A DNA stretch of 64,000 nucleotides. Source: Dictyoglomus thermophilum H-6-12. Its GTDB lineage: Bacteria; Dictyoglomota; Dictyoglomia; Dictyoglomales; Dictyoglomaceae. Positions 50,888-52,187 of the stretch are shown piece after piece; position 1 is the first letter of the stretch; each line of letters starts with the position of its first letter. Under the pieces are notes generated by a model that was not told the origin of the DNA, ran no database searches, and was given only the letters and a program-made list of their open reading frames with translations. The DNA lies in the NCBI RefSeq assembly GCF_000020965.1, contig NC_011297.1:310001-374000 (forward strand). Reading direction: 5' to 3'. The translations under genes were made by a program, and so were the position numbers.

Positions 50888-50930
50888 TAAATCTACCAGC
50901 TGAGTTGTTAGTCCCCAGCTGGTAGATTTA
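50888..50930. terminator. Long hairpin downstream of the YvrJ gene
   Basis: Perfect 15-bp arms TAAATCTACCAGCTG (50888-50902) and CAGCTGGTAGATTTA (50916-50930) enclose a 13-nt loop. It lies 4 bp past the stop of the YvrJ gene on the minus strand. No long T-run follows. Confidence 0.65.
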
Positions 50931-50934
50931 ACGT

Positions 50935-51093
50935 TTATGTAGATGCTTTTCCTGAGAGATTAAGTATTGCTTGAGACAGTTCATTTATGGCCTTAGTAAG
51001 ATTTTCAAGTCTTGTTTCTATTCTTATAAGAAGGATTAAAGAAACCACAATAGGAAATCCTAAATTACTTATGAGTTGAGCGATCTCATTCAT
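50935..51093 (-). CDS. YvrJ family small membrane protein (holin-like)
   Basis: A 52-residue protein starting with MNEIAQLISNLGFPIVVSLILLIRIETRLENLTKAINELSQ: one hydrophobic helix (residues 8-23) followed by an amphipathic helix. This is the layout of the YvrJ family and of BhlA/UviB-type small holins. The start codon has ggaggtg at the right distance. It is directly downstream of an M15 peptidase gene in a five-gene minus-strand cassette with DUF1659 and DUF2922 genes. Membrane permeabilisation is a hypothesis. Confidence 0.82.
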   Translation of the reverse strand: MNEIAQLISNLGFPIVVSLILLIRIETRLENLTKAINELSQAILNLSGKAST

Positions 51094-51095
51094 TT

Positions 51096-51428
51096 TTACA
51101 CCTCCATATGGATATATTTTTTTAATTTATCAATCTTCACATAGGAAAAACCAAGCTTTTGGACTATCTCATAAGCCTTTTCAAGTTCAGGACTGGTTAT
51201 ATCGCAAGCCATTCCCTTCATATGCTTTGAGTTTGGCACTCCTCCAACCTCTGTATTGTGCTTTTCGCATCTATATCCACTGGTAATTTTTATTTTTACT
51301 CCGCTTAAAATTAGTCTCTCTAACTTCTCTAAAAGGTCAGGATGAAGCATTACCCTTTTACAGCATGGACATTCAAAATCCTTCAAGTAAAAATTTTTAG
51401 ATATCTTAATCTCATTTACCTTAGGCAT
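51096..51428 (-). CDS. M15-family zinc peptidase (D-Ala-D-Ala carboxypeptidase/endolysin type)
   Basis: 110 residues. The zinc-site pattern is HMKGMACDI (His and Asp ligands, His at about residue 80), then the catalytic Glu and the last His in YIHMEV at the C-terminus. The core KITSGYRCEKHNTEVGGVPNSKHMKG is typical of M15A peptidases such as phage L-alanyl-D-glutamate endopeptidases. An N-terminal CPCC motif (residues 20-23) is unusual. It has no signal peptide, so it would need a holin or lysis to reach the wall. It overlaps the upstream small gene by 8 bp. Confidence 0.85.
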   Translation of the reverse strand: MPKVNEIKISKNFYLKDFECPCCKRVMLHPDLLEKLERLILSGVKIKITSGYRCEKHNTEVGGVPNSKHMKGMACDITSPELEKAYEIVQKLGFSYVKIDKLKKYIHMEV

Positions 51429-51651
51429 TTTTGTCCTCCCTATGTTCCATGCTTAAAATAATCTTTGAGATAAGTAAGGGTAGGAATTGTTTTTCTAAAA
51501 AAGTAGGAAAGCATTCTGGACATATGGGAGTTTCATCTATAAAAAATATGAAGTTTTTCTTTTTACCACATATTTTGCAAGAATAAACTGGAAATATCTC
51601 ATAGAGAAAACTAAATTTAAATTGTACTTTTTTAATGATATTCTCTAACAT
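51421..51651 (-). CDS. Small zinc-ribbon protein
   Basis: 76 residues with two CxxC pairs (CKICGKKK near residue 25 and CPEC near 45) forming a zinc ribbon, flanked by hydrophobic-aromatic stretches. No known family recognised. It overlaps the M15 peptidase start by 8 bp and is preceded by a 22-bp palindrome that separates it from the DUF2922 gene. A regulatory or adaptor role is possible. Confidence 0.6.
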   Translation of the reverse strand: MLENIIKKVQFKFSFLYEIFPVYSCKICGKKKNFIFFIDETPICPECFPTFLEKQFLPLLISKIILSMEHREDKNA

Positions 51652-51672
51652 CCTATCTCCTCCTTTTTAGTG

Positions 51673-51694
51673 GGGGCGGATTATAATCCGCCCC
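51673..51694 (-). terminator. Perfect 22-bp palindrome between DUF2922 and zinc-ribbon genes
   Basis: GGGGCGGATTA and its exact complement TAATCCGCCCC. It lies 7 bp past the DUF2922 stop on the minus strand; no T-run follows there, so it is more likely an mRNA processing or stabilising stem, or a leaky terminator, allowing unequal expression of the two halves of the operon. Confidence 0.55.
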
Positions 51695-51700
51695 TTATTT

Positions 51701-51931
51701 TTAATCGTAGTAATCACTTATGTTAGTCTCTATAACTCTTGCATCGACCTTTTCTACTAAATCTCCTGTTCTTCCCTGAAATATGTTCTGATTTATAATA
51801 GTGTCCATAGCGTTTAATATCTCTTGTTCAGTTATGTCATCCTTTGGGTCTGGAATCCTTAAGGTAAAATTGCTTCCGCCATTGTCTTTGAAGATCATTC
51901 TTATATATTTTCTTGAGCTATAATTTGCCAT
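51701..51931 (-). CDS. DUF2922 family protein
   Basis: 76 residues with the family pattern of a basic beta-hairpin (IRMIFKDNGGSNFTLRIPDPKDDITEQEILNAMDTII) and the ending KVDARVIETNISDYYD. DUF2922 genes habitually accompany DUF1659 and YvrJ genes in Firmicutes, as here. Function unknown. The ribosome-binding site aaaggaggtg precedes the ATG. Confidence 0.82.
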   Translation of the reverse strand: MANYSSRKYIRMIFKDNGGSNFTLRIPDPKDDITEQEILNAMDTIINQNIFQGRTGDLVEKVDARVIETNISDYYD

Positions 51932-51965
51932 CTTATCACCTCCTTTAAGTTAAATTTTTAGGGGC

Positions 51966-52187
51966 TTAGACCTCTACAAGCTCTTCATCATTGGTTCTTA
52001 CTACTTTCACTACGGGATATTTCTGCAAATTTCCTAAAGTTTGAGCTACAACGTATACTGCCTCGTCAGGAGCATTGGGTTTTACGTTGTTAAAGCTCCT
52101 GTTTCTTAATACAGGATTTCCAGATTGGACTCCGATCTGAACTCTTAAAATAAGGCGAGAGTTGTAAGGTAGAGATTGTAATGCCAT
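51966..52187 (-). CDS. DUF1659 family protein
   Basis: The start is set at the ATG at 52187 behind aaaggaggtg, giving 73 residues; a longer in-frame start at 52217 has no ribosome-binding site. The sequence (LILRVQIGVQSGNPVLRNRSFNNVKPNAPDEAVYVVAQTLGNLQKYPV) is the standard DUF1659 layout. It is the first gene of the cassette, followed by DUF2922. Function unknown. Confidence 0.82.
   Translation of the reverse strand: MALQSLPYNSRLILRVQIGVQSGNPVLRNRSFNNVKPNAPDEAVYVVAQTLGNLQKYPVVKVVRTNDEELVEV

Follow-up and report, generated by a model that had tools for sequence, protein, structure and literature searches.

Described systems and the Dictyoglomus cassette

Podoviruses related to phage phi29 carry lysis cassettes in which a protein of the holin-type family PHROG 4898 directly adjoins an interchangeable hydrolase, which in one viral contig (L043) is an M15_3 peptidase. 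A similar pairing is present in a 64,000-nucleotide stretch of the chromosome of the hot-spring bacterium Dictyoglomus thermophilum H-6-12 (contig NC_011297.1, positions 310,001 to 374,000; hereafter called the window). Here, a minus-strand operon running from position 52187 to 50935 encodes a DUF1659 protein, a DUF2922 protein, a zinc (Zn) ribbon-like open reading frame (ORF), an M15_3 peptidase, and the small protein YvrJ. Judging from sequence features, we consider it reasonably probable that this cassette is a chromosomal module of the holin-endolysin type. Unlike the podovirus cassettes, it resides in a bacterial chromosome with no virion genes nearby and has the DUF1659-DUF2922 pair in front. 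In addition, the holin of phi29 itself is annotated at 131 amino acids, which is far longer than YvrJ.

Several bacterial systems also invite comparison. The UviA/UviB/amidase bacteriocin-release loci and the BhlA-family holins share a small single-helix holin-like protein, an amidase, and sometimes a sigma factor (PMC9527704). However, YvrJ cassettes have no constant bacteriocin gene, and the DUF1659-DUF2922 pair is specific to the YvrJ cassette. Assignment of YvrJ to the BhlA/UviB family (PF10960) was not supported, with hhalign values of 0.8% for bacterial and 4.4% for phage YvrJ in a comparison that included three BhlA sequences. A pair formed by a bacterial holin and a peptidoglycan endopeptidase is also described for chitinase secretion by Serratia marcescens, as cited in PMC9527704, although that system operates in a Gram-negative host and is likened here by that description. 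YvrJ of Bacillus subtilis belongs to the same Pfam family and has a dedicated sigma factor, SigO-RsoA, that transcribes its gene, but its published context is the oxdC-yvrL and yvrI-yvrHa operons and not DUF1659-DUF2922 or a hydrolase (PMC8103513). We found no paper in the open-access library searched that ties DUF1659, DUF2922, or YvrJ to lysis.

A candidate holin and its putative endolysin

An earlier note on this DNA proposed that the five genes form a domesticated lysis module, and all five ORFs were recovered on the minus strand within 50935..52187, four of them with Pfam matches. YvrJ (52 amino acids; 50935..51093, minus strand) scores 65.2 bits against a cut-off of 29.5 for Pfam family PF12841 (E 3.7e-18) and matches the 'holin' family PHROG 4898 (E 8.6e-11). 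Its hydropathy profile reveals a single hydrophobic N-terminal helix followed by an amphipathic or charged C-terminal part, which fits the holin-like shape claimed in the note and makes the protein a plausible small membrane protein of the holin family.

Only 2 base pairs upstream of yvrJ lies the gene for the M15_3 peptidase (51096..51428, minus strand), which scores 55 bits against a cut-off of 23.2 for PF08291 (E 1.1e-14) and matches the endolysin family PHROG 894 (E 1.7e-26). The protein carries the S-x-H-x-x-G-x-A-x-D signature and the C-terminal H of M15_3 enzymes, and its putative zinc ligands, His69, Asp76, and His107, are invariant in the family alignment (A6). It has no hydrophobic leader, and thus its description as a signal-less peptidase of the predicted endolysin type also stands. 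The CPCC motif that the note took as a clue to lysis, DNA release, or protein export is instead the N-terminal C-x-C-C segment of the M15_3 domain. We rejected a separate redox role for this motif because it belongs to the domain, in which Cys20 is invariant even among phage members. The D. thermophilum genome (1,959,987 bases in one contig) contains one YvrJ gene and one M15_3 gene, and both are in the cassette.

Each of the five well-assembled Dictyoglomota genomes in the search (G000, G001, G004, G005, and G006) preserves the order of the five genes. Two further genomes of the genus, G002 (86% complete) and G003 (72% complete), gave no YvrJ match. Ratios of nonsynonymous to synonymous substitution rates (dN/dS) between D. 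thermophilum and G001 range from 0.02 to 0.13 across the five genes (0.10 for DUF1659), with dS near saturation for several of them. These values indicate, at the level of sequence comparison, that all five genes are under purifying selection.

To place the cassette in a wider context, we surveyed 138 YvrJ loci, with neighbours labelled by profiles built in this analysis and families confirmed by Pfam on cluster representatives. The ORFs were called mechanically, most loci derive from higher-scoring YvrJ matches, and some end at contig edges. YvrJ is present in 123 of 300 sampled Bacillota genomes, and the cassette also occurs in Caldisericaceae and Coprothermobacter. Outside the Dictyoglomota, the trio is widespread and is kept together, and the hydrolase varies. 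Specifically, the order DUF1659-DUF2922-YvrJ is found in 71 of the 75 non-redundant bacterial loci that have DUF1659 and/or DUF2922. A peptidoglycan hydrolase is encoded in the same-strand gene run of 34 of these 75 cassettes, in 33 cases directly beside YvrJ, and the enzymes represent five unrelated families (20 Amidase_2, nine M15_3, three Glucosaminidase, one GH108, and one Amidase_3). The YvrJ-adjacent hydrolases lack hydrophobic leaders, whereas most secreted control proteins have them. Moreover, 10 of the 19 M15_3 genes in the 300 Bacillota genomes are located within 700 base pairs of YvrJ, compared to an expectation of 0.011 (P 6e-27).

A corresponding arrangement is evident in phages. 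Relatives of YvrJ were found in IMG/VR contigs, mostly of 13-16 kilobases (kb). One checked contig encodes a phi29-type DNA polymerase, a packaging terminase, and a major head protein, and another encodes a major head protein and a connector. Among the 31 phi29-like phage loci in which a gene follows the YvrJ relative, that next gene encodes a hydrolase in about 23, including members of the GH25, phage lysozyme, CHAP, NlpC/P60, Amidase_5, Amidase_2, M23, M15_3, and Phage_lysozyme2 families. Because its phage relatives directly precede such diverse endolysins, and because YvrJ from both phages and bacteria matches PHROG 4898, YvrJ is best read as a holin-type protein with the M15 enzyme as its endolysin. 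This parallel, the main argument for the holin-type reading of YvrJ, is one of association. For the cassette as a whole, a role in bacterial lysis or release is probable.

Some observations weigh against this interpretation. The phage relatives of YvrJ score under the Pfam cut-off for the family, and since one query was used to gather both sets, the link of 98.5% between phage and bacterial YvrJ profiles is in part circular. As the name of a PHROG family, 'holin' is an annotation that may itself be based on gene position. None of the phage loci examined contains DUF1659 or DUF2922, and therefore the trio does not amount to a simple phage lysis cassette. Direct tblastn searches of annotated phages with YvrJ or DUF1659 yielded no match, and an alignment search of viral contigs for DUF2922 recovered no relative. 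Finally, the same-strand gene run lacks a hydrolase in 41 of the 75 cassettes, which means that the core is able to exist without one.

Taken as a proposal about gene families, the idea of lysis put forward in the earlier note is supported, and its holin-endolysin component is upheld by the PHROG match, the phage gene order, the leaderless and interchangeable hydrolases, and the clustering of M15_3 genes with YvrJ. The implied phage origin is not, given the absence of the DUF genes from phage loci and the many hydrolase-free cassettes. The note had also stated that no phage structural genes are near, and none were found among the neighbours. Both flanks consist of housekeeping genes (GH1, SPL-like, nucleosidase-like, and Nramp; DUF4139, ferredoxin-type, metallo-beta-lactamase, and M28), so the location is not that of a phage or prophage lysis cassette.

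The palindromes that had been noticed within and after the operon are real, as judged from folding energies and from hairpins at the same places in five genomes. A strong hairpin (50894..50930, minus strand; −29.3 kcal/mol, z −9.5) is predicted 3ˊ of YvrJ and probably marks the 3ˊ end of the operon. A weaker one (51672..51695; −18.1 kcal/mol, z −2.8) occupies the gap between the DUF2922 and Zn ribbon-like genes and is also present in G001, G004, G005, and G006. Both positions are occupied in all five Dictyoglomota genomes, with differing stem sequences. The internal hairpin has no run of U nucleotides on the operon strand and resembles a terminator on the plus strand only, and therefore we infer that it more likely serves for attenuation or processing than for full termination. 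It divides the DUF1659-DUF2922 pair from the lysis-type genes, which are closely packed, with an 8-base-pair overlap between the Zn ribbon-like and M15 genes ahead of the short gap before yvrJ.

The holin-endolysin reading draws on gene order, family membership, conservation, interchangeable hydrolases, phage parallels, and hairpins, from which we infer how membrane permeabilisation, wall cleavage, their timing, and the roles of the DUF proteins might be arranged. The leaderless peptidase would stay in the cytoplasm while YvrJ accumulates in the membrane. At a threshold, YvrJ would give the peptidase, or another cargo, access to the wall, whereupon the cell would be opened or a product released. 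DUF1659 and DUF2922, expressed from the operon's first half, might be accessory or regulatory proteins that perhaps time the action of YvrJ or bind cargo, and the internal hairpin would probably set how strongly the lysis genes are expressed relative to the DUF pair. DUF1659, DUF2922, and YvrJ are families without an assigned function that occur across much of Bacillota, and the interchangeable hydrolases suggest a concrete chromosomal role of the holin-endolysin type for them.

The DUF pair, a ComK-like family, and alternative roles

The DUF1659 protein (73 amino acids; 51966..52187, minus strand; PF07872, E 3.7e-23) is encoded by the first gene of the operon and is followed by the DUF2922 protein (76 amino acids; 51701..51931, minus strand; PF11148, E 1.4e-24; PHROG 21372, E 2e-15). 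AlphaFold predicts a beta-beta-alpha-beta topology for both, with confidence (pLDDT) of 89.8 for DUF1659 and 78.5 for DUF2922. Their profiles share weak similarity (15-26%, compared to less than 1% for shuffled controls), and together with the common predicted topology this suggests that the two may be distant paralogues. Fold searches returned no strong match, and the best weak ones include proteins of the phi29 group, namely p6 for DUF1659 and p56 for DUF2922. Homology of DUF1659 or DUF2922 to phi29 p6 was rejected, since the fold match between the DUF1659 model and the DNA-binding p6 proteins of phi29-like phages is weak (best E about 0.008) and the sequence profiles of p6 and DUF1659 show no similarity (hhalign 0.1%).

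An unannotated ComK-like family is often encoded directly downstream of the YvrJ cassette in Bacillota (L112:1792-2385, L128:3258-3902, and 19 other loci; alignment A3). These proteins of ~200 amino acids align with most of ComK (PF06338) at 96.6% probability in profile-profile comparison (E 5e-10, 119 columns), and shuffled, reversed, and unrelated controls all remained below 1%. No direct match to ComK was obtained in Pfam with two members, and none of the 21 members searched had an NCBIfam match. The gene is present in 115 of the 300 Bacillota genomes and co-occurs with YvrJ (odds ratio 15, p 1.5e-24, a value that overstates independence because the genomes are related). Of 120 copies, 52 are within 1.5 kb of YvrJ, and others adjoin RecD2 and ComFC-like genes or an Amidase_2 gene. 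No ComK-like gene was found in Dictyoglomota, including D. thermophilum and its relatives. This neighbour suggests a regulatory or DNA-related context for the cassette in Bacillota and says nothing direct about Dictyoglomus. The linked family could represent an unsuspected competence-type regulator in clostridia.

These findings bear on an alternative in which the cassette mediates competence-linked DNA release or local wall opening in Bacillota under ComK-like control, with Dictyoglomus keeping the effector half. We regard this proposal as unlikely, even though the ComK alignment, the co-occurrence and proximity to YvrJ, the RecD2 and ComFC-like neighbours of other copies, and the weak resemblance of the DUF1659 model to p6 are consistent with it. 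Dictyoglomus and its relatives have no ComK-like gene, the p6 and DUF1659 profiles are dissimilar, and a ComK-like fold does not necessarily imply competence. A role in DNA release or export is accordingly conjecture, its sole hint being a linked gene that Dictyoglomus lacks. A more sweeping version, which we hold to be rather improbable, would make DUF1659-DUF2922-YvrJ with its interchangeable hydrolase an independent and widespread bacterial system for lysis or release. Within Bacillota, a ComK-like regulator would control this system, which would serve DNA release or uptake, with the DUF pair handling DNA or timing the holin, and Dictyoglomota would retain its effector core. Non-lytic release is possible, if doubtful. 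In this case, YvrJ and the wall enzyme would release one particular protein, for example a bacteriocin or an enzyme, without killing the cell, as in other chromosomal or plasmid holin systems. Sigma-70-like genes beside several cassettes and the control of B. subtilis yvrJ by SigO-RsoA (PMC8103513) are compatible with such a function, but no single cargo gene accompanies the cassette from locus to locus, and profile comparison detected no relationship between YvrJ and BhlA.

It is likewise unlikely that YvrJ is a small membrane anchor or adaptor accompanied by ordinary wall-remodelling enzymes. Single-helix proteins can serve many roles, and cassettes without a hydrolase exist. However, YvrJ relatives hold the holin position beside endolysins in phages, and the cassette hydrolases need a way out because they are without leaders. 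Least probable is a sporulation-associated module, for instance an aid to mother-cell lysis, which we consider very improbable. This idea derives from a phenotype-prediction study in which DUF1659 groups with sporulation domains (PMC2955703), a correlation that may merely track Bacillota ancestry. D. thermophilum, in which the cassette is conserved, is described as a bacterium that forms no spores (PMC3931368), and the cassette occurs in Caldisericaceae and Coprothermobacter as well.

The Zn ribbon-like ORF and related loci

The Zn ribbon-like protein (76 amino acids; 51421..51651, minus strand) matches Zn_ribbon_8 and FmdB-type profiles below their cut-offs. It was found in Dictyoglomota only, where both CxxC pairs are kept among its relatives. 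A small CxxC ORF is also present between DUF2922 and YvrJ in some Bacillota (L122:2756-2977, L154:3200-3487, and L127:3169-3414). It occupies the same place, and its proposed homology to the Dictyoglomus ORF was rejected for want of a detectable relationship.

In G001, a CRISPR-type array of ~51 repeats (GTTTCAATCCCTTATAGGTACGCTACAAAC; L009:1001-4800) is located between the cassette and the Nramp gene, and the array is missing at the corresponding place in the window. G006 (L012) has a sigma-like gene at a distance of a few kb from its cassette, and neither the window nor L009-L011 contains an equivalent. Elsewhere, sigma-70-like genes (cluster c10) are beside YvrJ or the cassette at L049, L052, L106, L111, L116, L138, L166, L169, and L180, and these neighbours recall SigO-RsoA of B. 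subtilis.

G004 carries a second YvrJ cassette (L015:5586-7004) in which a GH108 hydrolase replaces the M15 peptidase and an extra ORF of 78 amino acids is present. As judged by eye, restriction-modification-type and phage-like ORFs are near it. A plasmid of P. bifermentans DSM 14991 also encodes DUF1659-DUF2922-YvrJ (L214:5679-8373), and an amidase gene in the opposite orientation lies close by.
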